A stretch of DNA of 41,347 bases from Candidatus Tenebribacter davisii (lineage in GTDB: Bacteria > Cloacimonadota > Cloacimonadia > Cloacimonadales > TCS61), in the NCBI GenBank assembly GCA_030765535.1, contig JAVCCH010000185.1, positions 1-41,347 of the forward strand, in the 5' to 3' direction. Below are positions 1 through 18,596 of the stretch, piece by piece. How positions within the stretch are numbered: position 1 is the first letter of the stretch; every line of letters starts with the position of its first letter. The notes under the pieces are model-generated. The model was not told the origin of the DNA. It saw nothing but the letters and a program-made list of their open reading frames with translations, and did no database searches. Position numbers and translations under genes: made by a program.

Positions 1-575
1 AGGAAAGCTCCAATAGCAGCAATAAGTTTAATATCTCCTCCTCCAAGTCCATCTTTACCTGTTGTCTTCTGGAAGATAAAAGCAGTCCCAAAAAATAGTA
101 TAAAACCCGATAAAGAACCTATAACAGCTGAAATCCAACTAACATCCGTATTCGGAAGAATTGAAAAAATTAAACCAATTACAATTAATGGAATAGATAA
201 TTTATCAGGGATAATAGAATGATAAAGATCAATAAAGAATATGATCAAACCAAAAGAAATAAAAATTGCATATTTAAAAAACACAATCGAAAATTGCCCA
301 TTCTGACTGGTAAAGAGAAGTATCAGTAAAAGAGGAGTCAACAATTCAACTAGAAAATAGTGAAGATCAATTTTGACACCGCAATAAGCACATTTCCCTT
401 TTAAGAAGATATAGCTGATAATTGGAATATTATGGTAAGGTTTTATATGTGTTTTACAAAACGGGCAACTTGAATCAGGAAAAACAATTGATTTTTTCTT
501 TGGAATTCTATAGATACAGACATTAAAGAAACTTCCAAAGACTGCACCGAAAATAAAAATAAGAATATAAAACAT
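1..575 (-). CDS. pilD: Prepilin peptidase PilD (partial, C-terminus beyond window)
   Basis: This is a bifunctional inner-membrane aspartic peptidase and N-methyltransferase that removes the leader of type IV prepilins and methylates the new N-terminus. About 191 residues are visible. The protein starts MFYILIFIFGAVFGSFFNVC, the usual start of the family. Two CxxC pairs (C37/C40 and C62/C65) form the family's zinc site. A first catalytic Asp lies in a FIDLYHSIIPD segment, and the second lies in GGGDIKL right at the window edge. Several hydrophobic membrane segments are seen. The gene follows pilC and is the last pilus gene visible. No Shine-Dalgarno sequence precedes the ATG: the upstream bases are the T-tract of a strong hairpin (584-603). 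The start is nevertheless supported by family alignment. The identification is secure; only its expression is puzzling. Confidence 0.93.
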   Translation of the reverse strand, partial: MFYILIFIFGAVFGSFFNVCIYRIPKKKSIVFPDSSCPFCKTHIKPYHNIPIISYIFLKGKCAYCGVKIDLHYFLVELLTPLLLILLFTSQNGQFSIVFFKYAIFISFGLIIFFIDLYHSIIPDKLSIPLIVIGLIFSILPNTDVSWISAVIGSLSGFILFFGTAFIFQKTTGKDGLGGGDIKLIAAIGAF

Positions 576-611: not shown

Positions 612-1865
612 TTATTTCATTCCCGAACTGATAGCCAGTCCCAGGTTGAATACCGGCAAGTAAATAATTATGATGATATATCCTACCATGCCAGCCATTA
701 AAATGATCATCATAGGCTCAATAAGTGACGTAAGCCGGTCAATAACTGAATCAACCAGTTTTTGATGGAACTCTGCTGCTTTTTTAAGAAGACTATCCAT
801 CTCACCAGTCTCTTCACCAGTTGAAATAAGCTGCAGAAGAGTTGATGGGAAAACCTTTGTTTTCTTAAAAGCTCCCGCCACGGTATAACCCTCTTTTACT
901 AATACTCTGGCTTGCCTGCAACCCTTTTCTATAACTGCATTCTGAACAACTTTCTCAACCAGTTCCATTGTATCCATAATTGGGACACCAGCATACATTA
1001 GAATGCTGAAAGTTCTTGCAAATTTACTCATGATGGAGTTTTCTAATAAATTACCTACCACTGGTAATTTTAGAAGAACGCGATCTACTATATAATGACC
1101 CCTTTCTGAAAGATAGAAAAGGAAAAACGCCATCAGCAATGCTAATACACCAAGTCCTGTAAAGAACACATTCTCACGCACAACATTACTAATTGCAATT
1201 GCAGCAACTGTTGGCGCCGGAAGATCAGCATTGAAAGATTCATAAACACCGGCGAACATGGGAATAATAAAATAGAACAATCCCCAAATCACAATAGCAA
1301 GAAAGACTAAAATGAATATTGGGTATGAAAGGGCTGACCCTACTTTTCTACGAGTATCTTCTATCTTCTCCAAATATGTTGCCAGCTCATCAAGCACAGT
1401 ATGAAGTGTACCGGAAACTTCTCCAGCTTTTACAAGTGCAATATATAAAGAGTTAAAAACACCTGGATGAAGTTCCATAGATTCGGATAAGCTATATCCT
1501 TTTTTAATGTCATTCGATAATTTGAGTAGAACTTTCTTAAATCTTTTATTCTTCTCTTCTCTTGCCAGGTTAGTTAACGATTTCTCAATAGTTAATCCTG
1601 CTGAAAACATAGTTGCAAGTTGACGAGTAAAGAATACAAGAATCTTTAAGCTTACTCCGGTTCGAATTTTATAAATAGTAAGCATTATCTTATCGAGCAT
1701 CGACAATTTTCCACTGAATGCTCCTTCTTTTCCCGGTTTTACCGAGATAATAATACTTCCTTCTCTTGTTAATTTATCAACAGCTTCATCCATGGTAGAC
1801 GCTTTCATTGTACCTTCTACACGAAGCCCTTTGACATCTTTAATTATATACTGAAAAACTGCCAT
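612..1865 (-). CDS. pilC: Type IV pilus inner-membrane platform protein PilC (GspF family)
   Basis: PilC is the polytopic inner-membrane platform on which the PilB and PilT motors act to add or remove pilin subunits. The 417 residues have the expected length. An N-terminal cytoplasmic segment is followed by two GspF domains: the first around residues 70-195, with LATMFSAGLTIEKSL and a YPIFILVFLAIVIWGLFYFI membrane span, and the second around 275-400, with the parallel motif FSILMYAGVPIMDTM and a C-terminal IEPMMIILMAGMVGYIIIII span. Each GspF repeat carries the expected GEVSG or GEETG motif (KAGEVSGTLH; STGEETGEMD). The start at 1865 has an AAGGAA ribosome site. It sits 25 bp after pilB and belongs to the same operon. 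Confidence 0.95.
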   Translation of the reverse strand: MAVFQYIIKDVKGLRVEGTMKASTMDEAVDKLTREGSIIISVKPGKEGAFSGKLSMLDKIMLTIYKIRTGVSLKILVFFTRQLATMFSAGLTIEKSLTNLAREEKNKRFKKVLLKLSNDIKKGYSLSESMELHPGVFNSLYIALVKAGEVSGTLHTVLDELATYLEKIEDTRRKVGSALSYPIFILVFLAIVIWGLFYFIIPMFAGVYESFNADLPAPTVAAIAISNVVRENVFFTGLGVLALLMAFFLFYLSERGHYIVDRVLLKLPVVGNLLENSIMSKFARTFSILMYAGVPIMDTMELVEKVVQNAVIEKGCRQARVLVKEGYTVAGAFKKTKVFPSTLLQLISTGEETGEMDSLLKKAAEFHQKLVDSVIDRLTSLIEPMMIILMAGMVGYIIIIIYLPVFNLGLAISSGMK

Positions 1866-1890: not shown

Positions 1891-3600
1891 TTATTCATCA
1901 GAAACAGTTAATTTAATAACCTCACTGATTGTTGTTAATCCTTGTTTCATTTTATCGATACCACTAGCATGTAGTGAATGCATCCCATTCCTGAGTGCTG
2001 CGTCACGTATTACATCCTGATTCTCTTCCGCGAAGATAAGTTTTCTGACCTCTGAATTTACTTCAATGATCTCAAAGATACCTGTCCTGCCGGAGAATCC
2101 AGTATTATTACAATGTACACAGCCCTTACCCTTTTTAAATGTGATCTCTTTTGCCTCTTCCTTTGTAATTCCAGCAGCAATAAGTTCTGCATCTGTAGGT
2201 GTGTAATCTCCGATACAATTTGTACAGATCTTACGAACCAAACGCTGTGCTAAAACAAGATTCAAAGAAGAAGCAACCAGATATGCTGGAATACCGATAT
2301 CTACAAGACGAGTAATAGTTGAAGGTGCATCATTTGCATGAAGTGTTGTAAAAACAAGGTGACCGGTAAGCGAGAACTTAATGGCAATATCAGCGGTTTC
2401 TTCATCACGTATCTCACCAATAAGAACGATATCAGGGTCTTGACGTAAAACTGAGCGCAGAGCTCTTCCAAAAGTTAGTCCTATTTTTTCTTTGGCTTCA
2501 ATTTGTGTAATTCCATCAAGCCTGTATTCCACTGGATCTTCAACGGTTACAATATTATTTTCGATATTTTTTATCTCTTTTAAGCCTGCGTGAAGAGTGG
2601 TCGATTTACCACTACCAGTTGGTCCTGACACAATTGTAATTCCATACGGTCGTTTGATCCATTTATGAAAAATATCTAGATCTGATTGTGAAAAACCAAG
2701 AGTAGTTAAACTGAAACCAAATTCTCCTTTATCAAGCAGACGCATCACGACTTTTTCCCCGGTTACTGTAGGTGCAATAGAAACCCTTACATCCACGCTT
2801 TTCACGGATGTTTTAAGAGATATATGACCATCCTGGGGCAATCTTCGTTCTGCGATATTCAATTTTGACATCACTTTAATAAGTGAAACCATTCCTGCGT
2901 GAAGTCCAATAGGAGGTGACATTACTTCACGTAAAGCCCCATCTATTCTAAATCTCACTCTTGTATTATTGGTAAGCGGCTCTATATGTATATCCGTAGT
3001 ATTTGATTTTATTGCTTCAGTAATGATAAGATTCACAAGTTTTACAACTGGTGCATCTGCATCAGCTTTATTATCTATAGTGATCTCATTTTCATCTTCA
3101 TCAACAGCAACAAATTCAAAATTACCTACAGCATCTTCCACTTGCGAAGATGTACGAATACCCTTATAATACTTTTCAAGAGTATCCGAGAGAACCGAAT
3201 CACCAATAAGCATTGGAATTATATTCAAGCTTAAAAGTTTTTGTAAACTATCCTGTATAACGATATTATCAGGATCTGTCATTGCTATTATCATGGAATT
3301 TTCTTTTTTATGAATAGCAATAACTCTATTCTCTACAGCAAAAGGTTCAGGGATAAGTTTTACAACATTAGGATCAAGTTCAAGAAGTTCATCTTCTTTA
3401 ATTATTTCATATTCAAGTTGAAGATGTAATGCATCCAAAAGATCTTTTTCGGATACATATCCCAGCTTTAATAATGTTTCTCCTAATTTCAAACCAAAAT
3501 TCTTTTGCTTGAGTACTGCCTCGTTTACTTGTTGCTCCGTTGCAGTACCAAGGTGAACAAATACCTCACCTATTCTAGCAAATTGGGGATTAAAACTCAT
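1891..3600 (-). CDS. pilB: Type IV pilus assembly ATPase PilB (GspE family) with N-terminal MshEN domain
   Basis: PilB is a cytoplasmic hexameric ATPase that powers pilus extension. In 569 residues the order is an MshEN/T2SSE_N domain (about 5-150), a linker, then the GspE ATPase core. Visible landmarks are the Walker A loop GPTGSGKST (326-334), the Asp/His boxes, the Walker B segment DPDIVLIGEIRD (388-399), and a zinc-binding tetracysteine (C459, C462, C494, C497) typical of PilB/GspE and absent from PilT. The N-terminus carries two consecutive 24-residue motifs, R9 to Q32 and K38 to Q61, each of the form (R/K)(I/L)GExxxxLG...Q. These match the pattern known to bind c-di-GMP in MshE-type ATPases. 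The gene lies between the Ig-like lipoprotein gene and pilC. Confidence 0.96.
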   Translation of the reverse strand: MSFNPQFARIGEVFVHLGTATEQQVNEAVLKQKNFGLKLGETLLKLGYVSEKDLLDALHLQLEYEIIKEDELLELDPNVVKLIPEPFAVENRVIAIHKKENSMIIAMTDPDNIVIQDSLQKLLSLNIIPMLIGDSVLSDTLEKYYKGIRTSSQVEDAVGNFEFVAVDEDENEITIDNKADADAPVVKLVNLIITEAIKSNTTDIHIEPLTNNTRVRFRIDGALREVMSPPIGLHAGMVSLIKVMSKLNIAERRLPQDGHISLKTSVKSVDVRVSIAPTVTGEKVVMRLLDKGEFGFSLTTLGFSQSDLDIFHKWIKRPYGITIVSGPTGSGKSTTLHAGLKEIKNIENNIVTVEDPVEYRLDGITQIEAKEKIGLTFGRALRSVLRQDPDIVLIGEIRDEETADIAIKFSLTGHLVFTTLHANDAPSTITRLVDIGIPAYLVASSLNLVLAQRLVRKICTNCIGDYTPTDAELIAAGITKEEAKEITFKKGKGCVHCNNTGFSGRTGIFEIIEVNSEVRKLIFAEENQDVIRDAALRNGMHSLHASGIDKMKQGLTTISEVIKLTVSDE

Positions 3601-3621: not shown

Positions 3622-5082
3622 TTAGTATCTTCTCAGGATAATTGTAACCTGATTAGATGTATTGGTTCCAAGTATTTGAGCTGTTACTACACCAGTAGTT
3701 GTTCCTGGCGGAGATGGAATAGGCTCTGGACATTCTAGAATATTGAATTCAACTTCTTTGTCCAGTCTACCATGCTCACCATTTACAATACCAGTTAAAC
3801 CTGTATAAGGATCGCCGGTATCTGGAGGAGATGGTTGTTGTGGCTGACCTAAAGTTGAGGAGAATAATACTTCCTGATTATCTATAGGATTATTCTGACC
3901 GTCTTTTACAGTAAGCCTGATCTCTGTTGACTGATCAGCTGGAGTAGGTCCCCACCAGTCAATATGGATCGGAACAGCTGCAATGTCTATTGTAGGGAAT
4001 TGAAGCGGGAGAATAAGTTCTCCTTCAAAAATATCACCTAGTCCGGTCTCAATTCTTACAGCAACGGCATCATTTGTATGAGAACCATTATAATTTAAAT
4101 ATGAGTAAGCCACACCTGCCAGAGAATCTCCCATAGCATTTAGATTATTTACGTAAGCTGCTGCTACAACTGATGCCCATTCAGGTTCTTCTGGAAGTGA
4201 GAAATAAACAGCTGTTCCAGCAGCAACAGGGTTACCTTCAATATCATTTAGAAGTGCAGAGATCTGAACTTTCCACATACCGCTACCCATATCTGTTCCA
4301 CTGCTATGACCACCTATACCAAATTCTACTGTATGAGTGAAACCGCTGGCAACAACTATATTAGATTTGCTTGAGCTTATCAATGCACCTTCAAGTGTTC
4401 GGGTTGAAACACGGCATGTAACAATACCAGAATGTCCCCCGCTATTGATATTAACAGAAGCTTTTCCGGCAATTGAATAAGTACTGTCACTTAATCCAAT
4501 ATTATTAATATTTGTACCATCTGGTGCATATAGAAGCTCAAACAGAACATTTTTTGGTTGTGTGATCAATTGGCCTGAACTATCGTAAAGACTTGCTACA
4601 AGCTCAAATGTCTCCATTCCTCCAGTTCCCTGAACACTAATCTGAACTTGCTCAGATACATCAAATCCGATAGAACTAACATCTTGAGGAGGTACACCAT
4701 CAACATAAATCTCGATCGATTCTGATACACTTCCTACGATCGCTTCAATAGTAGCCATTCCAAAAGAGTTACCATCATGAAATTTAACCGTAGCAAGACC
4801 ACTACTATCAGTAATAGCTTCAGCTGGAGTTAGATAACCAATATTAGATTTAAATTGAACTTCTTGACCGAATACAGCAAAATTATCACTATCTTTTACC
4901 ATAACCTGAATTGTAGCATATGTCATTTCATCACCATCCGAATAGATAACTGTAACATCTGAATTCATACTGGTAATTGTGTAGTCTAAAGGATCTACAA
5001 TTCTATTATCACAAGCTGTAATTAATAGACCAATAGCTATAAAACTAACAACAAGAGATAATATCAATTTTGAATATTTCAT
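3622..5082 (-). CDS. Lipoprotein with invasin-like (Big_1) Ig domains, encoded in the pilus operon
   Basis: This 486-residue predicted lipoprotein has a signal peptide ending in lipobox ITAC, with lipidated Cys24. Residues about 40-130 resemble a bacterial Ig-like Big_1 (invasin/intimin) repeat: a VMVKDSDNFAVFGQEVQF strand pair followed by a DSSGLATVKFHDG turn. Later segments repeat the scheme (GTAVYFSLPEE with DSLAGVAYS; NNPIDNQEVLFSSTLG near 390-410), suggesting three or more tandem beta-sandwich domains. The start codon overlaps the stop of pilQ by one base (TAATG), so translation is coupled to the secretin. No pilotin (PilF/PilW) family match is evident. Its position between pilQ and pilB suggests a role at the outer membrane, such as secretin support or a surface adhesin. 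That role is inference. Confidence 0.8.
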   Translation of the reverse strand: MKYSKLILSLVVSFIAIGLLITACDNRIVDPLDYTITSMNSDVTVIYSDGDEMTYATIQVMVKDSDNFAVFGQEVQFKSNIGYLTPAEAITDSSGLATVKFHDGNSFGMATIEAIVGSVSESIEIYVDGVPPQDVSSIGFDVSEQVQISVQGTGGMETFELVASLYDSSGQLITQPKNVLFELLYAPDGTNINNIGLSDSTYSIAGKASVNINSGGHSGIVTCRVSTRTLEGALISSSKSNIVVASGFTHTVEFGIGGHSSGTDMGSGMWKVQISALLNDIEGNPVAAGTAVYFSLPEEPEWASVVAAAYVNNLNAMGDSLAGVAYSYLNYNGSHTNDAVAVRIETGLGDIFEGELILPLQFPTIDIAAVPIHIDWWGPTPADQSTEIRLTVKDGQNNPIDNQEVLFSSTLGQPQQPSPPDTGDPYTGLTGIVNGEHGRLDKEVEFNILECPEPIPSPPGTTTGVVTAQILGTNTSNQVTIILRRY

Positions 5083-6491
5083 TATTCCTCCACTTCCTGA
5101 GTTTCTTCAGAATCTTTTTCCTGGATCAATCTCTTTTCAAGTTTCTCATCAATATCGAAATTTAAATTAACATTTTCAAAAGTTACAACATGAGGAGTTA
5201 TCTCAATAATAAGATCTGTTTTTTCAAGAAGTTTAACTTTATGCTGGAATAATTTTCCAATAAAAGGAATTGAACCAAGAATTGGAACTTTGTTTACAGT
5301 TGTTGACATAGATGTGCTTAAAAGTCCACCAACAATTATCTTTTGTCCATCAGGAACTGTTACAGTAGAAGTAATTCTTCTGATCTTAGTTCTTGGAATG
5401 TAACCACCGACCAATTCCATTACTGAGCTAACTTCCGGCTCGATCTTAGTTGTGATCTGACCTTCAGAATTAACAGTAGGTCTAACTTTAAGCTTGATTC
5501 CAACTTCTTCTCTTTCTACCTGGATCTGTTTCTCGTTATCTTCAGCAATATAAGGTACAACTTCACCAATATGTATTTCAGCTTCTTCACCATTCAGGGC
5601 AGTAATTCTGGTATCTGTAAGAAGTTTAGCTGCATTATTTTGCAATAACCAGTCTATTGTTATATCAAAAGCAGTAAGCTGGCGACTGAATTTGCCAATA
5701 TCAGCCAACTCTTCCATTCTTTGAAAATATTGATCTTCAGGAATTTGACCGAAGGGTGAGAGGTCTCCGTAAGGAAGATCACCTGCGTCATCTGTAAAGT
5801 TATATGGCAAACCTGTTCCATTAGCACTTTTTGCATCTTCAGCCAGTATAGTTGTAAGACTGTTTAACTTAGACCAGTCAATACCATATTTTTCAGCTTC
5901 GGTAACAGATATTTCAATAAGTCTTGCCTGGATCTCGATCTGTTTCTGTGGAACATCAATTTCTTCAATTCTATTACTGATCTCAGCAAAAGTTTCAGGA
6001 TTTGCTCTAATCAGAATTGCATTTTGACCTTCTATCGCAACAGACTCACCCGGCATAATTTTGAGTGCATTTACAATCTTATTTACATCAACATAATTAA
6101 GGTTAAGAACGTAAGTTCTTTCACCTATCTCTTCTTCGATCCTGGCTCTTTCACCAACAATAAATGTCTTTTCTCCAACTAAACGATAAGATAGTCCAAT
6201 AGATTTTACAACAAGTGCTAAAGCTTGTTCTATTGGAACTTCGTTAAGTTGAATAGTGATCTTTTTCTCTTCTGCTTTTTCATCTTTTGTGGTTGTGTCC
6301 ATTGCTAAAACAATGTTACAATTGCTTAATCTCGCCATTGTTGAAATGATAGTTGAGATAGATGCATCCTCTGCGTTAATTGTGATCTTATTTGCTAATA
6401 GATTTTCTCCCTCTGCTGCAAATAAATTCACAGATAACAATACCATTACAGTTAATGACAATAAAAGTAATTTAATGTTATTGATTTTCAT
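5082..6491 (-). CDS. pilQ: Type IV pilus secretin PilQ (GspD/PulD family)
   Basis: PilQ is the outer-membrane multimeric channel through which the pilus exits. It has 469 residues with a signal peptide (1-25, ending LFAAE). A short N0/STN domain (about 33-112) contains ITINAEDASISTIIS and VPIEQALALVVKSIGLSYR. One N1/KH-type domain (about 125-185) and the C-terminal secretin domain (about 186-435) follow, with characteristic VPDGQKIIVGGLL and VPILGSIPFIGKLF motifs and an ending like other secretins (TDLIIEITPHVV). It is shorter than proteobacterial PilQ (often 700 or more residues) and has no visible AMIN domains, so peptidoglycan anchoring may be provided by another protein. It lies downstream of the PilP-like gene (15-bp gap) and overlaps the lipoprotein gene by 1 bp. 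Confidence 0.94.
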   Translation of the reverse strand: MKINNIKLLLLSLTVMVLLSVNLFAAEGENLLANKITINAEDASISTIISTMARLSNCNIVLAMDTTTKDEKAEEKKITIQLNEVPIEQALALVVKSIGLSYRLVGEKTFIVGERARIEEEIGERTYVLNLNYVDVNKIVNALKIMPGESVAIEGQNAILIRANPETFAEISNRIEEIDVPQKQIEIQARLIEISVTEAEKYGIDWSKLNSLTTILAEDAKSANGTGLPYNFTDDAGDLPYGDLSPFGQIPEDQYFQRMEELADIGKFSRQLTAFDITIDWLLQNNAAKLLTDTRITALNGEEAEIHIGEVVPYIAEDNEKQIQVEREEVGIKLKVRPTVNSEGQITTKIEPEVSSVMELVGGYIPRTKIRRITSTVTVPDGQKIIVGGLLSTSMSTTVNKVPILGSIPFIGKLFQHKVKLLEKTDLIIEITPHVVTFENVNLNFDIDEKLEKRLIQEKDSEETQEVEE

Positions 6492-6506: not shown

Positions 6507-7055
6507 TTACCAATTATATTTTTTATCTGGTGAAGCTTCATTTTCATTTTGAATTGCGGTTGGTTTTTCCGGAAGTTTTTGGAGTTTAAGAACATTGTCT
6601 ACTCCTTTATAGGAATAAACAATTTCTCCCTGACGGATATCTTTGATTATTCCATAATAGAAACTATCACCAATTTCATAAAGTTTAGTTTTACCTTTAT
6701 GAGAAATGGCAGCTCTTTTTCTTCCAATTTCAGGAACAATGGTTGTCTCCAGACGAACCATACTTTCTACTTCGAGTCTCCATTGTTTTTCCAGATCTTT
6801 TATTGTTTTTACGATCAAATTTTGTTCAAGAGGGTCCTTGGTAACAGTAAACACAAATTCTTTTCTATCATTAATAGAATGCTCGATATTCTGGATCTGA
6901 TTGAACAAATCTTCGCTTAATGCCAATTTTTTATACTTAGATTCTACTGGAATTACCTTTGCCTTTTGATAAAGACTATTGCATTTAACACCAAGCACTA
7001 TAAGGAGAATTACAATCAAGGCAATAACTAGATCTTTTAAATATTTATCTTCCAT
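6507..7055 (-). CDS. pilP: PilP/GspC-like alignment-complex protein
   Basis: This 182-residue protein has one N-terminal transmembrane helix (about 8-24) and a periplasmic domain. Residues about 110-160 carry the PilP/GspC homology-region pattern: GRKRAAISHKGKTKLYEIGD followed by two short strands and LKLQKLPEKP. In the family, this domain binds the N-domain of the secretin and links it to PilM/N/O. Unlike classical PilP it has no proper lipobox (the local sequence is VLGVKCNS), so it appears membrane-anchored like GspC. The position between pilO and pilQ and the 1-bp TAATG overlap with pilO support the assignment more strongly than sequence alone. Confidence 0.8.
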   Translation of the reverse strand: MEDKYLKDLVIALIVILLIVLGVKCNSLYQKAKVIPVESKYKKLALSEDLFNQIQNIEHSINDRKEFVFTVTKDPLEQNLIVKTIKDLEKQWRLEVESMVRLETTIVPEIGRKRAAISHKGKTKLYEIGDSFYYGIIKDIRQGEIVYSYKGVDNVLKLQKLPEKPTAIQNENEASPDKKYNW

Positions 7056-7615
7056 TATAATTCCTCCTTGATGATCTTAAAGACTGAAATTTCAAAAGTA
7101 ACTTTATACCTTGTATCAAGTAGTTCAATTGAGTCGGTATTCTTATCTTCCTGCTTCGGTCTCACATCAAGAGTATTTATTTTAAGTATATGATCGAATG
7201 ATTCTAATTCCGATAGGAATTGCCCCATTTGTACAAATGTCGTAACTACCGAAAGTGTATATTTTTGTTCAACAAGATGTGATTTTTCAGAAGCGACAAC
7301 CTTTGGTGAAATAGAATCAATTGAGATTTCATATTTATCAGCCAGGTCAGCTAATTTTTTAATAAAGGTATTAACTTCATCAATCTCAAATTTATCATTA
7401 GTTGTCATACTCTCCATAATAATCTTAGAAACTTGCTGAAGTTGATCATTAATAACTTTAGCACTATTCAATTTTTCCTGTTCTATTTTAATTTCTTTAT
7501 CATAACTATTTATCTTATGGATCTTGGCCTTAACACTGCTTGTGCTGAAATAAAAGAAACACATGGTACTCAAGATCATCACAAACAATAAGAGGAGATA
7601 TCTTTGCTTCATCAT
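7055..7615 (-). CDS. pilO: Type IV pilus inner-membrane protein PilO
   Basis: This is a 186-residue bitopic protein: a short cytoplasmic tail, a transmembrane helix at about 6-24, a coiled-coil segment (about 30-70), and a ferredoxin-like periplasmic domain, the usual PilO plan. Motifs such as LADKYEISIDSISPK and FVQMGQFLSELESFDHILKINTLDV match the PilO consensus. PilO pairs with PilN to form the inner-membrane alignment complex. Its start overlaps the pilN stop (ATGATG over TGA, 4 bp), so coupled translation and near 1:1 synthesis with PilN are likely. Two adjacent ATG codons are possible starts; the first is used here. Confidence 0.87.
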   Translation of the reverse strand: MMKQRYLLLLFVMILSTMCFFYFSTSSVKAKIHKINSYDKEIKIEQEKLNSAKVINDQLQQVSKIIMESMTTNDKFEIDEVNTFIKKLADLADKYEISIDSISPKVVASEKSHLVEQKYTLSVVTTFVQMGQFLSELESFDHILKINTLDVRPKQEDKNTDSIELLDTRYKVTFEISVFKIIKEEL

Positions 7616-8211
7616 TTTTTACCTCCTTTTCCCGTATAGCTCTTTGATATACAGTCGATCTGGAATCGAAGGATATCAACATCTTTTTCCTTATCTTTAC
7701 TGGATTTTACAAATTGAATTTCAGGGAAATCAGTACTGATCTGTTCATTATTTTTCAATTCAGAAATAAAATCATTGATCAGATCAAATTCTTTTAAATC
7801 TCTATCCAGGCGGGTTATGCCAAAAAGACTTAGTTTGTTATTCTTGAATGAGAAATAAGTAATAGCAATTTGATCCGTTGTCTTCTCAGATAAAGCTACC
7901 AGTTTTTGAGTCCAAAAGATTCTTTCAGAACTAATACTGGCAAGTCTTGTAAGATCTTTAGATGAAAGAAATTCTCCACTCACCTGGTAAGTTTTGATCT
8001 CATCACGAATACTATTCAATAGTATACTTCTATGCTTAATTTTCGAACTCAGATTTTCACTAATGAAGATTGAAATTATTGTTGCAATAATAAATATCAC
8101 TGCATAACTTATAGCTGAAGCTTTAAATGTTCTCTTTTCAGATTCGGCTTTTTGTTTTAGTTCACCGAATTTATTAAGATTTATTGCGAAGTAAAATGTA
8201 TTCATTGTCAC
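7612..8211 (-). CDS. pilN: Type IV pilus inner-membrane protein PilN
   Basis: This 199-residue bitopic protein has a cytoplasmic N-terminus with a short motif (FYFAINLNKFGELKQK) in the place of the INL(L/x)P-like PilM-binding segment. A transmembrane helix (about 31-51), a coiled region and a periplasmic alpha/beta domain follow. PilN docks on cytoplasmic PilM through its N-terminus and dimerises with PilO. The gene is 3 bp from pilM and ends in TGA inside the pilO start, which shows that TGA is a true stop in this genome. Sequence conservation in PilN is low, so the order M-N-O-P carries much of the weight. Confidence 0.86.
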   Translation of the reverse strand: MTMNTFYFAINLNKFGELKQKAESEKRTFKASAISYAVIFIIATIISIFISENLSSKIKHRSILLNSIRDEIKTYQVSGEFLSSKDLTRLASISSERIFWTQKLVALSEKTTDQIAITYFSFKNNKLSLFGITRLDRDLKEFDLINDFISELKNNEQISTDFPEIQFVKSSKDKEKDVDILRFQIDCISKSYTGKGGKK

Positions 8212-8214
8212 TCC

Positions 8215-9288
8215 TTATTCCGGTCTCATTGCCAGCCCTAAAGCTACGGCAAATTGAGGATCGTTTGTAATACCTGGTCTATCTGAATCTTCCAGGTTAG
8301 TGAACGGATTGAAAATCTCAGCCGGAATTTTAAGCTGTTCGGCAATATATTCTGGTAAACCTTTTGTATTAGCGCCACCGCCAACAAGTAAGATTTTTTT
8401 GAAATCACTGTTACCTGCCTCTTTCACATAAAATCTGAGTGATCTTTTAACTTCTTGTGCAATAAGCTCAATTGTATTTTTTTCGGATATATCTAAAGCA
8501 ATAAGAGTTTTTTTATCCTCTTTTATTTCTTTATCTTTTAAACCATGTTGAAGTTTGTACATTTCAGCTTCCTGATAAGAAATCTTCTGCTTTTTCATAA
8601 TATCTTTAGTTATATTAAAACCACCGTAAGAAATATCACGCGCAAAAAACTTCGAAGTTGGACTGTAAATAACCATATTTGTTTTAAATGCACCAACATT
8701 AAGTATAACATATACTCCATCTTCATGATCTTCACTATTAAAGATAAAACTGTTTACTACAGCTAAAGATTCCAGATCAACGATACCGGGTGTTAAACCG
8801 GCAGATGTTAATATGTTGGAATGTTCTGTTAATAATGATTTTGTAGATGATGCAAGCAAAATATTCATGTTATTTGTTTTCTCTTCTACGCTTAGAACCT
8901 GGTAATCAAGATTCATCTCTGAACCGCTAATGGGCAAATGCTTCTTTGCCTCGAAGAATAAGGCGGATTCCAGCTCTTCGTCTGGTAGAAAGATCGTTTT
9001 AATCTGCTTTATACTTGTATTATCTCCACCAATAGATGAAACTAAATGATTTATCTTTTTGGCTTTTAGTTTCAGCGTTTTTACCAGTTGAGCTAATATG
9101 GGACCATAGCGATCAGGAGACAGATCTGAAAAAACAGGCTCCACTCCTTCCGGAATTGTCGAAAGGCTTTCACAGTTCAATAATTTAAAACCATGGTGTG
9201 TTTTCCTAAGATGAACCATTTTGATACTGTGATTACCTATGTCCAATCCGATTGATTCTTTGAATTTTACTGTTTTCGTCTTAGCCAT
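8215..9288 (-). CDS. pilM: Type IV pilus actin-like ATPase PilM
   Basis: This 357-residue cytoplasmic protein has an actin/FtsA-like fold. The phosphate-1 loop is SIGLDIGNHSIKMVHL (about 13-28). A GVYVILNVGAFKTNMVIY segment forms the second phosphate loop, and ILLVGGGANTKGLPEYI is the adenosine motif. The ending AVALGLAMRPE matches PilM C-termini. It recruits PilN and transmits motor activity across the inner membrane. The start at 9288 has a GAGG ribosome site. It follows the giant pilin-like gene by 47 bp and precedes pilN by 3 bp. Confidence 0.94.
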   Translation of the reverse strand: MAKTKTVKFKESIGLDIGNHSIKMVHLRKTHHGFKLLNCESLSTIPEGVEPVFSDLSPDRYGPILAQLVKTLKLKAKKINHLVSSIGGDNTSIKQIKTIFLPDEELESALFFEAKKHLPISGSEMNLDYQVLSVEEKTNNMNILLASSTKSLLTEHSNILTSAGLTPGIVDLESLAVVNSFIFNSEDHEDGVYVILNVGAFKTNMVIYSPTSKFFARDISYGGFNITKDIMKKQKISYQEAEMYKLQHGLKDKEIKEDKKTLIALDISEKNTIELIAQEVKRSLRFYVKEAGNSDFKKILLVGGGANTKGLPEYIAEQLKIPAEIFNPFTNLEDSDRPGITNDPQFAVALGLAMRPE

Positions 9289-9335: not shown

Positions 9336-11645
9336 TTAGTGTGGATCTTCTATAAAATCAGCTGGAGGAGCTTTATAGAACCACGATCTCTTTTCAAATG
9401 CTGTAAGTGTTGTCTCACCCCAACCTTCATATACCTGTGGAAAATCAGGTGGTTGAACATACAACAAACGTTTATCATAGTGATAGTCTTTATCATATCC
9501 TGTAGATAAATGTTCTCCATCATAATGATATTGATCCATTTCCCATTGGTTATTTCCCGGATGATTATAAGGATCTTCTCCTGATCGATGGATAAATCCA
9601 CGTCTCCTCTGAGCAATCGCACCGTATATTGTAAGCGTTCCTCTTTCCATTACAATATCATCGGATGATTCTGGCCAGACCGGATTATACCAGGGATAAT
9701 CAGTTCCATAAGGTACAGTATAGGAACCTGAATTATTATTAGGATAAGAATTTATGTACCCAGAATTCTCATAAGGATATCCGCAGGTACCATTTGTCAT
9801 AGGTACACCGCCATGCAGATTAAAACCTTCTATTCCAGGCGGAAGCATTCCGGTAGGTGGAAATATAAATTTATGCAGATCTATATATGTATAGGTAGAA
9901 TCGGAAAATCCTGATAAAATTACCTGATATATTATACCTGGTCCTGGATTTGGTCCATCGGAAGCAATTAAATTTCCATCACCATTAATGATCTCATATA
10001 AATGTTCATCTTCATTAATACCGGCTGTATACACTGTTTCGATAATGTCACCATTATTAACAGTAAAGCCAAAAGTATTATATCCACCTGTGCAGGAAAT
10101 GTCATCCAGTCTGATCTCTCCATTGATAAGAAGATCTATAGTCGCACCATCCCAGCCGTCTCCACCTGTATCTATCAGATTAATTGTATAGTTATCATAA
10201 ATATAGGGACTTAATGCTGTAAAATCTGGAGTTGAACCATGCGGATGCTGATATTGGAAAGTGAAGATGCCGTCATAATGACAAGACATATTTCCATATA
10301 AACTCACATCCCCCTGACCTATGGCAGCGTAAGCACCATAGAGAAGAACATCATCACAATTTTCCTCTCTCAGTACCATATCCTCAAATGGATCTTTATG
10401 TTTATATCTTATCAATATCTTCTTTTCGGAAACTAGACCAAAATAATCTGAGGTATTAGGGCTTAAAGGATTGTCTGGAGGACCGGAAGTTGTATTGGCA
10501 TAAGTAATATCTCCAACAATAAATACTGTATCAGCACTAGCCCACGTTTGTGCTCCAAATACTACACCTTCTATCCACAGCTCAGCTTCACCCACCCATA
10601 CCGATTGACCTACAACCGGGAACGCTGTACTTGGAGTCCAGAGAGTATCATAAAGAGTAATATGATTAGTCCAGATATGGTTAGATTCTTCAAACCAGTT
10701 TCCACCGGTATTTACTACATCATCGGCTGTTTGGGTATTGTGCGGATACCAGCTGTAAACACCAAAGGTATCAACTCCAGTAGCTATAACATCACCAAAC
10801 ATACAATCAAAGCTGCCATCATGGAGTTTTACATATACAATATCAGTATCTGGTTCACCCAGTTCTATACCATTTTGCTTAATAAGATCGGCAGTTGGGC
10901 TAAAAATAATCGGTGGTACTTCCTCTACATATCCGCCCAGGAATATCTGATCCATAGGAGCACTTCCAATTGCTGGTGCGCCGGTTTCCTCATCCATGAT
11001 CCTTTTAGCAGTAGTTACCATACCATGGAAAGTCGGCCAGCCTAATACATTCTGGATCCAGATATCATCGTTGGAATGTACCGGACCGAACATTTCATCT
11101 GCACCATAGAATTTAACCATAGCTGCAGCTGTCCCGCCATCAGCATTTTCAGAAGCTTCTACATCAGAAAAATATTGATATTCTGCAATACTCTTATTTT
11201 TTACCAAACGCTCAGAATAAGTTTTCACAGGTGAGTTATAAGATTGAACGACCCAGCGTTCCCGTTTTGCAGATATCAAAGATTGAATAGCATATGCCTG
11301 CTCAGTAGCTAAACCCATAAAGCTGTTAAGTACCATTTGTTTACCATGGCTGGTGATATAATATGTAGTTCTGCGATCAGGTTCCAATATCTCAATAATA
11401 CGCCCCGGTAATTCTCTTGCATTATCATGTTCAATAGCCAGATGTAATCTTATTGCCTCACTACGCAGTAAAAATTCTTCCTGCATTTTATCATGGGAAT
11501 ATTGCGTTTGCAGTTGATTATGACCAGTAACGACCATCAAAGATGCTGAAGAAAGTACAGCAACAACACTAAGCATAACTGCTGTTACCATAATTAGCAC
11601 ACTACCGTCATTACTGTTCAATATTTTTTTAAAAAGTTTTATCAT
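9336..11645 (-). CDS. Giant PilX/GspK-like minor pilin with adhesin-like body (candidate pilus tip protein)
   Basis: This 769-residue protein has a prepilin-like N-terminus: a basic start, then DG before a long hydrophobic helix (about 15-40, SVLIMVTAVMLSVVAVLSSA), as in PilX_N-type minor pilins. There is no Glu at mature position 5. An alpha-helical part (about 50-160) leads into a beta-rich region. FGPVHSNDDIWIQ (about 186-198) resembles DUF4900-type domains found with pilus genes. An inserted module at about 484-565 has the DTGGDGWDGATIDLLING signature seen in secreted adhesins of FCB bacteria. Aromatic and Tyr/Gly/Pro-rich sequence fills the C-terminus. It is encoded with two small minor prepilins, like the GspI-J-K tip set, where GspK also lacks Glu5 and carries an extra domain. 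The tip-adhesin role is inference. Confidence 0.78.
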   Translation of the reverse strand: MIKLFKKILNSNDGSVLIMVTAVMLSVVAVLSSASLMVVTGHNQLQTQYSHDKMQEEFLLRSEAIRLHLAIEHDNARELPGRIIEILEPDRRTTYYITSHGKQMVLNSFMGLATEQAYAIQSLISAKRERWVVQSYNSPVKTYSERLVKNKSIAEYQYFSDVEASENADGGTAAAMVKFYGADEMFGPVHSNDDIWIQNVLGWPTFHGMVTTAKRIMDEETGAPAIGSAPMDQIFLGGYVEEVPPIIFSPTADLIKQNGIELGEPDTDIVYVKLHDGSFDCMFGDVIATGVDTFGVYSWYPHNTQTADDVVNTGGNWFEESNHIWTNHITLYDTLWTPSTAFPVVGQSVWVGEAELWIEGVVFGAQTWASADTVFIVGDITYANTTSGPPDNPLSPNTSDYFGLVSEKKILIRYKHKDPFEDMVLREENCDDVLLYGAYAAIGQGDVSLYGNMSCHYDGIFTFQYQHPHGSTPDFTALSPYIYDNYTINLIDTGGDGWDGATIDLLINGEIRLDDISCTGGYNTFGFTVNNGDIIETVYTAGINEDEHLYEIINGDGNLIASDGPNPGPGIIYQVILSGFSDSTYTYIDLHKFIFPPTGMLPPGIEGFNLHGGVPMTNGTCGYPYENSGYINSYPNNNSGSYTVPYGTDYPWYNPVWPESSDDIVMERGTLTIYGAIAQRRRGFIHRSGEDPYNHPGNNQWEMDQYHYDGEHLSTGYDKDYHYDKRLLYVQPPDFPQVYEGWGETTLTAFEKRSWFYKAPPADFIEDPH

Positions 11646-11654
11646 AATATCACC

Positions 11655-12320
11655 CTATTCCGTATTAGCATGTGAATTACCCAGGAAAACTGAGGTTTCA
11701 TAAGTAATCGTTCTGGTGTTTCTCCTCAAGTCATCATCATTGGATTGACGTTGAAGTTTCTCACGGAATCTAACCTGGCCAACAAGCTTGATCTTAACCA
11801 TTAGCGGGTGACCAGCAGCATCTGTATGTTCCAGAGACCAGATCTGATGTGGATTTTTTATGATAAATTGTGGGGTATTGCCGAAAAAATTTGCGGCTGA
11901 AGACGGGAAAATCACTTTTCTCTCAGGAAAACGATTTAAACCATAGTTCCCGTTTATTTCTAATTGGTTATCATCATTTACCATATATTCAACCCAGTAG
12001 TCGTCTTCAACATCTAGGTTCAATACTAACGGAGTGACCCTAATGGAATTATGTGAAGATCCTATTATTACTTTTTTTGCAGTCGATAAGCCAATAAGAC
12101 CTTCATTATCAGTAACTCCCTCATACATGAATCCCTGTTTCATAATTTCTATTGCTTCAAATAAATCCTGTTGAAGTTGATTATACAATTTCACTTCCTG
12201 GAAAGTAGTTGTAAAATGGACTATGCCAATTCCAAAAATTACAAAAACCAATGAAGCGAGAGGAAGAGCAACAATTAATTCAATAAGGTTGTAACCTTTG
12301 TTATTATTTATTGTTTTCAT
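11655..12320 (-). CDS. Minor prepilin (PilW/GspJ-like)
   Basis: This is a 221-residue prepilin with a short leader MKTINNNKG, then YNLIELIVALPLASLVFVIF: Gly at -1, a methylatable aromatic at +1 and Glu at +5, followed by the hydrophobic helix. This is the class III/N_methyl signature processed by PilD. The beta-rich body contains a RFREKLQRQ stretch near the C-terminus. Length and position among three minor pilins recall GspJ or PilW, which help start pilus assembly. It lies 9 bp before the giant minor pilin and 2 bp after the PilV-like gene, so the three are very likely co-translated and form a priming or tip complex. Confidence 0.85.
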   Translation of the reverse strand: MKTINNNKGYNLIELIVALPLASLVFVIFGIGIVHFTTTFQEVKLYNQLQQDLFEAIEIMKQGFMYEGVTDNEGLIGLSTAKKVIIGSSHNSIRVTPLVLNLDVEDDYWVEYMVNDDNQLEINGNYGLNRFPERKVIFPSSAANFFGNTPQFIIKNPHQIWSLEHTDAAGHPLMVKIKLVGQVRFREKLQRQSNDDDLRRNTRTITYETSVFLGNSHANTE

Positions 12321-12322: not shown

Positions 12323-12796
12323 TTATTCTTCCTCGTCAGTTCTATAGAAGTAATCTTCACGCAAGATAATAGTTTTTTCTTTATTCAAAACATCATTAAG
12401 ATAATACTCCGGACCGTCACGCCAGGTTACTTTCACACTTATCACATCGTAATCGACATATTGAGAAACATTCAGATCAGTATATGTTGATCTCGACGGA
12501 GAGCTGAGATTCCCCCAAATTGCTTCTCCATCTGCATCATCAATAATAAAATTGAGTGGAACAATACCATCGATATCAGTATAAGATTCATTATTCCTAT
12601 TAACATATTTTATCTGTTCTATTCTTTGCTGCGCTTTTAATAGTGCAACACGATAATGGTAACTACTTACCGAACTATGCCAGGCATAATAGGAACTCAA
12701 GAAAAGACCACTTAATGCAATAGTAACAATGACCAAACCGGCTAGGGCCTGGACAATTCCAAACCCGCTTTCAGAACGCAGTATTTTATTATTCAT
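12323..12796 (-). CDS. Minor prepilin (PilV/GspI-like) with Gln instead of Glu at +5
   Basis: This 157-residue prepilin starts MNNKILRSESG, then FGIVQALAGLVIVTIALSGL. Cleavage after Gly11 leaves Phe at +1, and the fifth mature residue is Gln, not the usual Glu. I chose the ATG at 12796, one base after the pilT stop, because it gives an 11-residue leader typical for prepilins. A TTG at 12820 would add eight residues and overlap pilT by 23 bp. The body has a helix with ALLKAQQRIEQIKYV, as in PilV and GspI, and a small beta region. It sits between pilT and the PilW/GspJ-like gene. Confidence 0.83.
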   Translation of the reverse strand: MNNKILRSESGFGIVQALAGLVIVTIALSGLFLSSYYAWHSSVSSYHYRVALLKAQQRIEQIKYVNRNNESYTDIDGIVPLNFIIDDADGEAIWGNLSSPSRSTYTDLNVSQYVDYDVISVKVTWRDGPEYYLNDVLNKEKTIILREDYFYRTDEEE

Positions 12797-12797: not shown

Positions 12798-13853
12798 TTA
12801 AAAAGCCGTCCCGGTAGCAAACATTTTAGGATTATCTGCTACTTCTTCAGCTACTTTTCTATCAAGATAACCATTCATTACATGATTATATAATGATTGA
12901 TCTTTAGATTGCATACCTTCTTTATTTCCAGATTGGATCACAGATGGTATCTGATATGTTTTTTCCTCACGAATTAAGTTTTTTACAGCATTATTCGCGA
13001 TCATTATCTCAAGTGCAGGGATCCTGTCACTTTCATCTTTCATTGGAAGCAGTGTTTGTGCAATTACCGCCTGAAGTGATTCTGAAAGCATGGAACGAAC
13101 TTGAGCCTGCTGCTCTTTCGGGAACATATCAATTATCCTGTCGATAGATTTTGTAGCACTACTTGTATGCAGCGTTGCAAGTACCAAGTGACCTGTTTCA
13201 GCTGCAGTTAGTGCCAATGATACTGTTTCGAGATCACGCATCTCTCCCACAAGTATCACATCCGGGTCTTCACGTAATGCTGAACGCAGTGCAATCCTAA
13301 ATGACCAGGTATCATGCCCCACTTCTCGTTGATTCATTAGAGAATTCTTGCTATGATGGGTAAATTCTATCGGATCTTCAATTGTAATTATGTGGCAGTG
13401 CTTATGATCATTAATATAATCAACCATTGTGGCAAGTGTTGTGGATTTACCACTACCTGTCGGTCCGGTAACCAGTATTAATCCACGTTGTTTCATGGCA
13501 AGTCTGGCTAGAATTTCCGGCAGATGAAGATCATCAAAATCTTTTATAACATTAGGGATAACACGAAAAGCAACACCTAAACCATTAACCTGATGAAAAG
13601 CATTTACCCTGAAACGTGTATCATCATCCAATTTCGTCGAGAAATCTATTTCCAATTTCTCTTTAAAAATTGCTATTTGAGAATCATTCATAGTACTATA
13701 AATGAGTTCTTCAACTTCCTTCTCGCCCATTTTGGGCAAGTTCAGTTTTTTCATTTTTCCCAAAACTCTTATCATGGGAACAGAACCTGCACTTATATGC
13801 AGGTCAGATGCACCTGCATCTGATGTAAATTGTAATAATTCTTTAACTGTCAA
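12798..13853 (-). CDS. pilT: Type IV pilus retraction ATPase PilT
   Basis: PilT is a cytoplasmic hexameric ATPase that depolymerises the pilus and drives retraction and twitching. At 351 residues it is the normal length. It has an N-terminal PAS-like domain with ASDLHISAG (15-23), Walker A GPTGSGKST (130-138), an ITIEDPIEF Asp box, Walker B REDPDVILVGEMRD (194-207), a His box TGHLVLATLHT, and the PilT-specific NLIREEKTYQIPSVIQSG stretch (292-309; the AIRNLIRE motif). It lacks the tetracysteine of PilB. The start is a TTG (encoding Met) 7 bp after a GGGGG ribosome site; no in-frame ATG would keep the domain. It follows pilA by 22 bp. Confidence 0.95.
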   Translation of the reverse strand: MTVKELLQFTSDAGASDLHISAGSVPMIRVLGKMKKLNLPKMGEKEVEELIYSTMNDSQIAIFKEKLEIDFSTKLDDDTRFRVNAFHQVNGLGVAFRVIPNVIKDFDDLHLPEILARLAMKQRGLILVTGPTGSGKSTTLATMVDYINDHKHCHIITIEDPIEFTHHSKNSLMNQREVGHDTWSFRIALRSALREDPDVILVGEMRDLETVSLALTAAETGHLVLATLHTSSATKSIDRIIDMFPKEQQAQVRSMLSESLQAVIAQTLLPMKDESDRIPALEIMIANNAVKNLIREEKTYQIPSVIQSGNKEGMQSKDQSLYNHVMNGYLDRKVAEEVADNPKMFATGTAF

Positions 13854-13875: not shown

Positions 13876-14307
13876 TTAATCGAGAATCCCTTCTTCGTCT
13901 ATTTCATCATCCGGTAAACCATAACCATGATATGATGCATCATCAACATCATACCAAACTTGTTTTCCTTCTCCTTCAGCAAAATCTGCTGTTGTAGTAG
14001 CCATATATTTTTTTGGTGGGTTACCAACAACTTCAAATTCCCAGTTTTTCTGTGTTCGATTACCAAGATTAGTATCTTTCATTGCAGTTTCGATGTCATA
14101 ATCAGTGGTTGATCCATAAGTTTGATAATGAACTCTGTAAGCTTGTCGTAAAGCAGCAATAGCTGATTGAGCTTCTGTTGAACGTGCTTGACGAACATAA
14201 TTCATGTAGATTGGTACTGCGATCGCTGCCAAAATAGCAATTATGACAACAACAACTAACAACTCAATAAGACTAAACCCTTTTTGATTTTGTACTTTTT
14301 TAAACAT
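13876..14307 (-). CDS. pilA: Major type IV pilin PilA
   Basis: This 143-residue prepilin has leader MFKKVQNQKG cut before FSLIELLVVVVIIAILAAIA, the classic type IVa pilin N-terminus with Phe+1 and Glu+5. The mature protein of about 133 residues is small. It has a long N-terminal helix with SAIAALRQAYRVHYQTYG, then a short beta part, and an acidic Asp/Glu-rich C-terminus. There are no cysteines, so it has no D-loop disulfide. It is the first gene of the pilus operon and has an AGGAGG ribosome site, consistent with high expression. Because the same signature occurs in the type II secretion pseudopilin GspG, a pseudopilus role cannot be excluded, but pilT and pilM-P in the operon favour a pilus. 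Confidence 0.93.
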   Translation of the reverse strand: MFKKVQNQKGFSLIELLVVVVIIAILAAIAVPIYMNYVRQARSTEAQSAIAALRQAYRVHYQTYGSTTDYDIETAMKDTNLGNRTQKNWEFEVVGNPPKKYMATTTADFAEGEGKQVWYDVDDASYHGYGLPDDEIDEEGILD

Positions 14308-14514: not shown

Positions 14515-17500
14515 TTATTTGATCAATAACATACGTTTTGTACCTATCGCTTTGTCATCAACTTCTAATTGATAAAAATAGACTCCTGAAGAAACCTGTT
14601 TATTATTTCGATCAGTTCCATTCCAAATAACAGAATGCTCCCCGGTTTCCAAATGTTCATTAACCAGAGTATTTAATTTCTGCCCTTTTACATTATAAAT
14701 TAATAGTTTAACATTTAAGGGTTGATCTGTATTTAATGTAAACGTAATGGTAGTTTCAGGGTTAAATGGATTTGGATAGTTACCTTTAAGTTTAGTCTCA
14801 TATATTGTCAGATCATCAACAGATGATCCTGAGTATTTTGTAATTAAAAAAGAAAACGAAGGGATCGACTCCACACTATTAGTATAAACCGATCTGACAG
14901 CAAATTGGTATATATCATTGGGAAGATCTATCCATTCTGTATCTGTATAGACTGTATCTGTAATACCCTCGGCAATATTTTCCCAGCTGCTCGGATCATT
15001 ATGTTGTAATTCAGTGAATCTGTATACATTATAAGATTCCATGGATCTGCTGATAGTTTTTTCTGTATGAGAGCTCAGGATTTTGTTATCCAATCTCTCA
15101 GCCGAAGTATTTCCCATATTCATACCAAAAGCACGGATCATAAAGTTGCGTTCATAATTAACTCCGAATGAACTTACATCAGTCCAAACACCGGATACAG
15201 TCCAATTCTCTTTACAGAATTGTGTTCCAGGCTGGAATTCCCAGGGTTCTTCAATACCATCATCCATTCCAATAGAAGTATACGCATTAGGTGTGGAAAC
15301 TCCCACAAAGAATCCCTCATAAGCTTCCAGAGGTACATCGAGATAATGGATATTCCATTCATCATCAGTATTGTCAACATAGCCAGACTCATACAGAACA
15401 TCACCTTCATCCGGTTTATATTCATCATCCAAACCAAAAAGATACAGTTTAACCTGATCATGAATGCCGTATGTTGAGTCAAGATACCAGTGGATCTCCT
15501 GTACAATGGCAATATTTGAATGAACCGCACCAAAAACTGCATTTGGCGGTGTTGTATTATATCCTAACTGGAACTCATAATCACCGTCATCATAGCGGAA
15601 TTCGCCACTGCCTACTGCAGGTGGAGTCCAGCTAAGAGCCACTTCAGTTCCTTCCGGATTTTGAGTCGCCTGCACATTTTGCGGTGGATAGGCAACTTCA
15701 TTTAAAACTATTGTTCCAAGATCTAAAGCTGTACCTCCAACTGAAATTTCATCTATATAATTGTCATATCCTTCATAAGTTATCAAAATATCGTACGTAA
15801 TATTTGTGTAAACATCTTCTATTATAAAATCACCGTTTACATCAGTATAAACCTGATAATTTTCAAATCCGGTGATCTCCACCAGGGCATTCTCTAAACC
15901 AACTACAGGAAAGTCACTTCCAGCCACATGACCCGAAACCGAAACTGCACCAAGTGAGATCAGGTTAAAATCAACTTGAACTGTTTCATCTTCAATGACT
16001 TCTTCTGTAATAGTTTGAGGCGAATATCCCATTAAATTTGCTGTAAAATCATGAACTCCGGCAATAACATTTCCAAAGTGATAATAACCCTGATCATTAG
16101 TATATGTCATTGTCTGAGTTTCGTCTATAGTTACAGAAGCACCTTCTAAAGGATTATCCTCATCATCATATACATAACCTTCTACTTCACCCATAGCTCC
16201 CAGGAAGAAAGTAAAAATGGTATTGGCAAATTTATCGAATGTGTAACTTGAATCAGGAGGACTGGCTGGATCCAAGATCATTGTATCATCTCTTTGATAG
16301 CGGGTACGATCTACGTAATCAGGAGTTTGGTCATGTAAGAAATAATCAGAAGAGCCATAATTTTGAGTATCCATTGGACGGAAGGTCATTACTACAAGAT
16401 TACCGCCATTGTAAACATATGGTGTAGTAAATTGAATGGTTACTTCGTTAGTTCCAGATGGATATGTAACATTGCCATTAAATACTTCTGTCAACATTGT
16501 TGACGGTATCCAACCACCTGTTAAATTATTTTGAGTGGTTTCTCCCAGCCAGACTGCAGTTGGCTTATCCGTTAAATTGCTGGTGAAATTATTGTAATAC
16601 GTAAGCTCTGTTATCATTCCAATGCCGCCAGCTAATTCATCTGCAAAATAAATAATCTCTGTTAAGCTGTTTTTATATTGAAAACTTAAAGGAGTTCTAT
16701 TATTAGTTTCAGTTCCATCACCTACAGATATCTCCATAATACCCTGTGGGTAAACCTGGATCTCAAGATTATTAGTACTATCATTAGCCGGATTTTCGTC
16801 TCCAGCTAAAGATACCTGTCCATAAAGATATGTGAATCCGACAGGTTGACTTACCGGAACGTCCCAAACCAGATCATGGCTGACAGACTGGCTTGGATCA
16901 ATAATCTGATTAACATCAAGTGATGCAACCTCAATGCCGCCTTCCTGGAATAATTTAACTGTATAATTTGTTTGTGCATTAATACCGACATTCTTAACTT
17001 CGATTGAATAAGTTTCGGTGTTTCCAGCATTAATCACAGTATTACCTGAAATATTCATACCAGCAAGATCATTATCATAAACAGTAGGATTACCTGTTAT
17101 CAAGACATCATCTACACATACTCCATAACCATATTGTGCAATTCCTTCAAAGGCTACATAATAAGTTGTAGAAGGATTTGGTAAGAATATAGTTCTCTCA
17201 GTCCATGTTGGTGTATCTGCAATAAAAGATTCAATTAATGTCCAAGTACCTCCCAAAGAATTCTTATAATAAATATGTAATTCATCTTGATCAGATAACC
17301 ATAGTGTTTGAGCATGCCAAAAGGTTAGAACACCATCATTAGCTGTTCCTAAGTTAATTTCGGGAGTTATCAATTTTGTTATATCTGCTTCAGTAGAACT
17401 AGTATTGTATAGTTTCGCATTGAAACTTCCAGTATGTGCTGCAGCGGGATTTCCAGATTGACCACCATTTTCATAAATCCAATCGATCGTACCAGTAATA

Positions 17501-18384: not shown

Positions 18385-18564
18385 TATTACTCCTAAAACT
18401 TATTTTATTATTTTATTTTTTATTATGCAAATCTTATTCCAGTATAAATTGTTAAATTTGCATATTGCTAAACACGAGTTGTGATGATCATTTTTTATGT
18501 CAAGTAGTTATCTGAACAGTTAAGGTTATTAATACCACTGGCTGTTCAGTTGCTTTTGAAAAAT

Positions 18565-18596
18565 AAATAACGCTCCGAAAACGTGGAGCGTTATTT
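18565..18596 (-). terminator. Intrinsic terminator after the TGA-interrupted secreted-protein gene
   Basis: A perfect 12-bp stem (AAATAACGCTCC 18565-18576 with GGAGCGTTATTT 18585-18596) and an 8-base loop are followed by a T-rich tract on the minus strand. It lies 26 bp past the stop at 18622. Confidence 0.87.

Follow-up and report, generated by a model that had tools for sequence, protein, structure and literature searches.

The gene treated here occupies positions 9336–11645 on the minus strand of contig JAVCCH010000185.1 of Candidatus Tenebribacter davisii, within a MAG of Candidatus Cloacimonadota (3.0 Mb, 218 contigs, 95% complete). All positions refer to the window, that is, the whole 41,347-nucleotide stretch of this contig that was analyzed. 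The open reading frame (ORF) starts with ATG, encodes a product of 769 residues, referred to below as the giant prepilin, and lies within a pil locus that comprises the following genes, given in the order of transcription:

13876..14307 (-), PilA-like major pilin, 143 aa (N_methyl, 5.7e-10)
12798..13853 (-), PilT-family retraction ATPase (TIGR01420, 474 bits)
12323..12796 (-), minor prepilin 1, ~157 aa, Gln at +5, GspI/PilV-like (prepilin features, family profiles)
11655..12320 (-), minor prepilin 2, 221 aa, Glu5, in a GspJ/PilW-like position (prepilin features, position)
9336..11645 (-), giant GspK-like modular minor prepilin, 769 aa (ORF, homologs, AlphaFold model)
8215..9288 (-), PilM (PF11104, 5e-48)
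7612..8211 (-), PilN-like protein (PF05137, 9e-5)
7055..7615 (-), PilO-like protein (PF04350, 4.5e-6)
6507..7055 (-), protein in the PilP position (position only, without a convincing family match)
5082..6491 (-), secretin PilQ (PF00263, 5.6e-40)
3622..5082 (-), Ig-like (Big_1/Invasin_D3) protein, 486 aa (domain matches)
1891..3600 (-), PilB assembly ATPase (PF00437, 1.3e-129, plus MshEN)
612..1865 (-), PilC platform protein (PF00482, 8.8e-57)
3..266 (-), prepilin peptidase PilD, cut by the contig end (PF01478, 1.2e-16)

The two small minor prepilins that the earlier note had placed beside the giant prepilin are indeed encoded directly upstream of it (12323–12796 and 11655–12320), and the PilM gene lies directly downstream. 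The giant prepilin is co-encoded with the assembly machinery and with a prepilin peptidase; the PilD of this contig is the sole prepilin peptidase found in the genome, and an N_methyl search of the genome detected no second prepilin set. The Ig-like Big_1/Invasin_D3 protein (3622–5082) is encoded within the pil operon, with the secretin and PilB genes on either side, and may act as a further surface-exposed partner of the pilus. Adjoining the pil locus, the minus strand of the window at 14515–27178 encodes large secreted proteins with FlgD_ig/Por sorting tails, comprising a MAM/carboxypeptidase-regulatory protein, a C25 gingipain-like peptidase and an M14 carboxypeptidase. A scan of the window with Rfam and a comparison with phage records gave no match.

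The N-terminus of the giant prepilin reads MIKLFKKILNSNDG/SVLIMVTAVMLSVVAVLSSASLMVV, with Met at position +5. An acidic residue at +5 was found in none of the 50 aligned members of the giant-pilin family that have a readable N-terminus, and the Gly that ends the leader is present in 50 of the 51 alignment rows, the remaining row being truncated at a contig end. The class III leader ending in Gly, the hydrophobic α1 region and the long N-terminal helix are those of a type IV pilin; the prepilin-like N-terminus without Glu5 previously described for this 769-residue protein is thus borne out by the ORF, by the Met at +5 and by the family as a whole. None of the curated family models recognizes the giant prepilin: PilX_N (PF14341) and DUF4900, the searches proposed earlier, left the window protein unmatched, as did every T2SS-K model and the N_methyl signature (PF07963). 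DUF4900 gave weak matches at the start of the body in five of 37 family members (best match 0.0011 and 19.7 bits, against a Pfam cut-off of 29.4 bits). K-type tip pilins without Glu5 commonly escape N_methyl. ComZ is likewise not picked up by PilFind (PMC6561018).

An AlphaFold2 model of the giant prepilin, built from a 51-sequence alignment (pLDDT 83, pTM 0.71), and comparison with homologs divide the protein into the following parts:

11196..11645 (-), pilin module: leader, α1 helix (12–73) and four β-strands (82–150) (AlphaFold, block pLDDT about 55–87)
10200..11183 (-), body part 1, residues ~155–482, common to secreted propeller-like proteins (homologs, model)
9906..10199 (-), optional GDGW module, residues ~483–580, an eight-stranded β-sandwich (homologs, separate model)
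9432..9905 (-), body part 2, residues ~581–738 (homologs, model)
9339..9431 (-), C-terminal segment with the last β-strand (750–758) (AlphaFold model)

The N-terminal helix comprises 62 residues (12–73) and the β-rich body ~580 residues (about 158–740); the helix region is of lower confidence, and residues 741–750 have a pLDDT under 50. The order of the elements in the model (helix, four strands, β body, last strand) is that of ComZ, and the last strand (750–758) presumably rejoins the pilin sheet. A fold without a pilin-like N-terminal helix had been named in the earlier note as grounds for giving up its reading; the AlphaFold model contains a long one. No relative of the giant prepilin was found in the PDB by sequence, and Foldseek gave no match in the PDB with E ≤ 0.001; two viral matches with E ≤ 0.001, of about 110 columns each, probably cover the GDGW module.

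Of 125 phylum genomes covered by a protein search, 105 contain a relative of the giant pilin. Wherever the surroundings are readable, the homologs lie at the same place in the operon, and most are 600–700 aa in length; the oversize remarked on previously is therefore real, but it is normal for the family in this phylum rather than a peculiarity of the window protein. Since the homologs of 600–700 aa lack the GDGW module, the module is not the cause of the giant size. Among 36 aligned members, identity to the window protein ranges from 34 to 75%, and the invariant residues include HSN (190–192) and those in WYNPxWPE and RRG. The gene order minor prepilin 1, minor prepilin 2, giant prepilin, PilM is kept in the family loci with enough flanking sequence; co-occurrence with minor pilins in relatives, on which the earlier reading also depended, was accordingly observed. 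Glu5 is always present in the minor prepilin 2 family, and the minor prepilin 1 family has Glu or Gln at +5: the window protein has Gln (GFGIVQ), and the 16 aligned members are divided between Gln (nine) and Glu (seven), which makes the loss of Glu5 in minor prepilin 1 lineage-specific. Matches of the minor prepilin 1 family to the GspI model (6/16 members, best 5e-4) and to PilV (5/16) are all weak, and minor prepilin 2 members match other minor-pilin models, also weakly. Several genomes carry the giant pilin gene as a tandem duplicate or triplicate (L009, L016, L018, L041, L101, L111, L115 and L119). Three records labelled Armatimonadota (L065, L067 and L090) have a Cloacimonadota pilin and secreted protein that nest inside Cloacimonadota in the trees, and are probably mislabelled MAGs.

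The body has a second home. In many relatives, secreted proteins of ~870–1070 aa carry the pilin body (pilin residues ~155–738) in mid-protein; they possess a signal peptide, Asp-box-like repeats that flank the body and a FlgD_ig/Por_Secre_tail C-terminus, and the Asp-box motifs together with weak Sortilin/BNR matches suggest that they are propeller-like. SprA, a core protein of the T9SS, is present in 35 of 39 family genomes, so that these carriers are plausibly T9SS cargo. Seven further homologs of the flanks were examined, and all seven contain the body. No secreted copy was found in the genome of the window itself; the pairing of pilin and secreted body is hence not universal. One genome (G083; L051/L105) has four body-carrying secreted genes in tandem. 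A secreted subfamily (L152, L153 and L158) is missing the first ~100 body residues, including the HSN region, and forms a separate clade that does not track the pilins of its own genomes. The giant pilin, as a pilin module joined to modules (the body and GDGW) that also occur in non-pilus proteins, has the composition of a modular pilin.

If the secreted gene had split from the pilin only once, its bodies should form one clade. Such a clade was rejected for 34 pilins and 23 secreted bodies, at a cost of 648 log-likelihood units (p-AU 7.8e-5). The widest body tree (46 pilins and 32 secreted proteins) has 18 context switches, 17 of which are forced by well-supported branches. When each of 31 secreted proteins is compared with the 46 pilins, 19 are closest to the pilin of their own genome, and the secreted body of G057 shows 71% identity to its own pilin versus 42% to the best other secreted body. 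The secreted flanks, by contrast, belong to one homologous family, mostly with 20–44% identity, which branches unlike the body tree. In several genera the secreted gene adjoins LpxB and PspC, and is by these shared neighbors a positional ortholog; a set that includes the LpxB-PspC-linked orthologs likewise rejected one secreted clade (p-AU 9.2e-11). The flank tree contains two old secreted subfamilies, and the JAGLPW genome has both, with bodies of the genus type of that genome in both. These observations indicate recurrent exchange or homogenization of the body between the pilus tip and the secreted protein, and the simplest reading of the homogenizing process is recombination, presumably gene conversion. 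Repeated independent fusions that placed the pilin body in a propeller gene, with no gene conversion involved, would also yield mixed body trees, and long identical DNA tracts, the mark of recent conversion, are few: the longest are 50, 47 and 39 nt, so that very recent conversion is not evident. Independent fusion nevertheless appears unlikely in view of the single flank family with a body in all seven additional homologs, the LpxB-PspC neighborhood common to several copies across genera, and the two old flank types that both bear local genus-type bodies in one genome. In several pairs, local tracts were detected by a permutation test, most of them within the variable region of the body (~190–390); these tracts are not proof of partial conversion, because conversion of the whole body fits equally well. 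No description of the matching of pilin and secreted bodies, or of the nesting of GDGW within a body within a pilin, was found in open-licence full texts.

The nested module was delimited by alignments of the window pilin to its relatives, which break at residues 482 and 581. The GDGW segment is present in 14 pilins of the tree set, including that of the window, and is missing from nearly all others. Its recognition in the earlier note was correct, although the limits given there (484–565) were slightly narrow compared with those from the homolog alignment (about 483–580). Modelled alone, the module is an eight-stranded β-sandwich (pLDDT 89) with only weak β-sandwich matches in the PDB (CARDB, CBM35, the EclA C-terminal domain and C2), which are too weak to show that it is “carbohydrate-binding”. 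The module occurs in 48 of the 125 phylum genomes, and its non-pilin copies are mostly in long ORFs. Two further copies in the genome of the window are in secreted multidomain proteins (~1790 and ~1980 aa) with CarboxypepD_reg, LTD, fn3, MAM and Cleaved_Adhesin domains, in agreement with the earlier statement that this type of module is usual in secreted proteins. Pilin modules score 153–182 bits versus at most 100 bits elsewhere, which would fit a single graft followed by losses or exchange, but the profile was made from pilin modules and is thus biased towards pilins. Presence of the module changes several times on the body tree, and species of the same genus differ in it (G072 has the module, G071 does not). 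Recent arrival as foreign DNA was considered and rejected, as the GC content of the module (36%) differs from that of the body (38–40%) without a sharp shift. Nor is the module a defining part of the protein, since most homologs are without it. Because most homologs at the same locus lack the module yet retain the body, the conserved function is expected to reside in the body, and the role of key adhesive part that had been assigned to the module was not sustained.

The absence of Glu5, the I- and J-like minor prepilins encoded upstream, and the pilin helix and sheet of the model are consistent with a K-type subunit; of the earlier proposal, the GspK-like tip pilin is retained, and adhesion through the GDGW module is not. 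Tip complexes are known to be capped by a subunit without Glu5 (PMC10191384), and bulky modular pilins are presumed to be exposed at the tip and can be adhesive (PMC8179133, PMC9934059). By analogy, the oversized subunit probably caps the sole type IV pilus detected in this organism, and a tip pilin displaying a module is supported; from the same precedents we infer its tip location and the binding of a ligand, and the giant pilin is likely to be an adhesin. In the mechanism proposed here, the giant prepilin would be processed by the PilD of the same contig and would pack via its α1 helix onto the I- and J-like minor pilins, thereby priming filament assembly; Glu5 would be missing because no subunit lies above it. 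The ~580-residue body, inserted between the fourth and last strands of the pilin sheet, would be shown at the end of the pilus and bind an external ligand, after which PilT would retract it. In this lineage, a mobile GDGW β-sandwich from secreted proteins would have been inserted into the body, providing it with a further, optional module for a ligand, and many relatives would display the same body on a separate secreted Asp-box protein with a T9SS-type tail, the two copies being repeatedly homogenized within a lineage. This explanation as a whole, in which a tip-capping minor pilin displays a ligand-binding body that is homogenized with a secreted copy, is the one that we consider reasonably probable. 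The earlier observation that PilY1 is missing from the visible locus holds, and the giant pilin could conceivably take its place, as was suggested there. The PilY1 model (PF05567) gave no match over the Pfam cut-off in the 125 phylum genomes, including lineages without the GDGW module; 14 control genomes gave none either, and absence from the phylum is accordingly a weak negative. In the genome of the window, one sub-threshold match of 19 bits falls in a 701-aa ORF.

Other functions have been weighed against this explanation. The ComZ-like order of elements, with a β domain between the penultimate and last strands, the lack of Glu5 and the adjacent I-like partner (PMC6561018) would also suit a competence-type tip DNA receptor like that of Thermus, in which the β body binds DNA for an uptake pilus. 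The body and module are, however, strongly acidic (82 D+E versus 21 K+R), and the body also occurs in secreted T9SS-type proteins, which take no part in the uptake of DNA by a pilus, so that a surface ligand is favored over DNA; moreover, no PDB chain is related to the giant prepilin by sequence. An acidic body by itself leaves room for a DNA receptor, because ComZ is also without a positive patch (PMC6561018), and we judge this function to be rather improbable. The conservation of the K position with I- and J-like partners in most of the phylum is likewise compatible with a subunit that, in the role of GspK/PilX, only primes assembly and whose large body is a passive cap without a specific ligand; GspK itself carries an inserted domain of unclear function (PMC8179133). 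A passive cap would leave unexplained why secreted proteins display a matched body and why a module of secreted proteins was added, and we therefore give it little credence. The tip of a T2SS-like pseudopilus, at which the giant pilin would recruit or release cargo secreted by the locus, is very improbable: minor pilins at the T2SS tip do touch cargo (PMC10191384), and the secretin of the locus matches the GspD model a little better than the PilQ model, both below the cut-off, but the PilT-family retraction ATPase and a PilM, rather than a GspL fusion, are typical of T4aP.

The preferred reading, that of a tip-capping pilin with a displayed, ligand-binding body, has several implications. That the pilin and a secreted T9SS-type protein have a body in common suggests that two machines use a single binding specificity, and the function of the body could be tested with a soluble protein in place of the pilus. 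A more speculative extension, to which we attach only a small likelihood, is that the tip body and the propeller-borne body constitute a matched recognition pair kept alike by recombination within the genome. It is similarly doubtful, though conceivable, that the pilus grips the body on kin, or that both bodies grip the same lineage-specific ligand; if true, the type IV pilus tip and T9SS surface proteins would be joined in a system of self-recognition or shared specificity. Most of what is known about modular tip pilins comes from a small number of cultured bacteria, and the present family is conserved across an almost uncultured phylum. In this phylum without detectable PilY1, the giant pilin is a candidate with which it can be tested what such pili hold on to.

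The giant pilin is a variant of the modular K-type tip pilins that falls outside PilX_N, DUF4900, N_methyl and PilY1. It resembles ComZ of Thermus thermophilus in its large size, the lack of Glu5, the GspK-like pilin module and the neighboring minor pilins (PMC6561018), as well as in the predicted placement of a big β domain before the last strand, which is an inserted β-solenoid in ComZ (PMC6561018; AlphaFold model); it differs in having no detectable sequence relation to ComZ, an acidic body that is common to secreted T9SS-type proteins, and the additional GDGW module. With the modular pilins, such as PilB and PilC of S. sanguinis and the class surveyed by Raynaud et al. (2021), it shares the combination of a pilin module with a non-pilus module and the presumed display at the tip (PMC8179133, PMC9934059). 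In contrast to these, its module is inserted before the last strand instead of appended, two modules are nested, the N_methyl-type signature used in the survey is unmatched, and the locus is of the diderm type with a secretin. GspK/PilX likewise occupy the K position, downstream of I- and J-like genes, and also lack Glu5, whereas the giant pilin has no PF14341 or T2SS-K match, is about twice the size and contains a β body in place of the α domain of GspK. Like the giant pilin in the role proposed here, PilC/PilY1 carries a binding module at the pilus tip, and effector modules are known to be common to PilY1 and pilins in terms of domain architecture (PMC8179133). PilY1 is, however, not a pilin, its C-terminal PF05567 propeller is unmatched in the giant pilin, and the secreted Asp-box proteins resemble it only as a propeller-like part plus a module. 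In Neisseria pilS/pilE, recombination changes the exposed part of a pilus subunit. There, silent pilin cassettes act as donors and variation results, whereas the giant pilin and its secreted counterpart are each encoded by a complete gene belonging to a different machine, and they come to resemble each other within a lineage.
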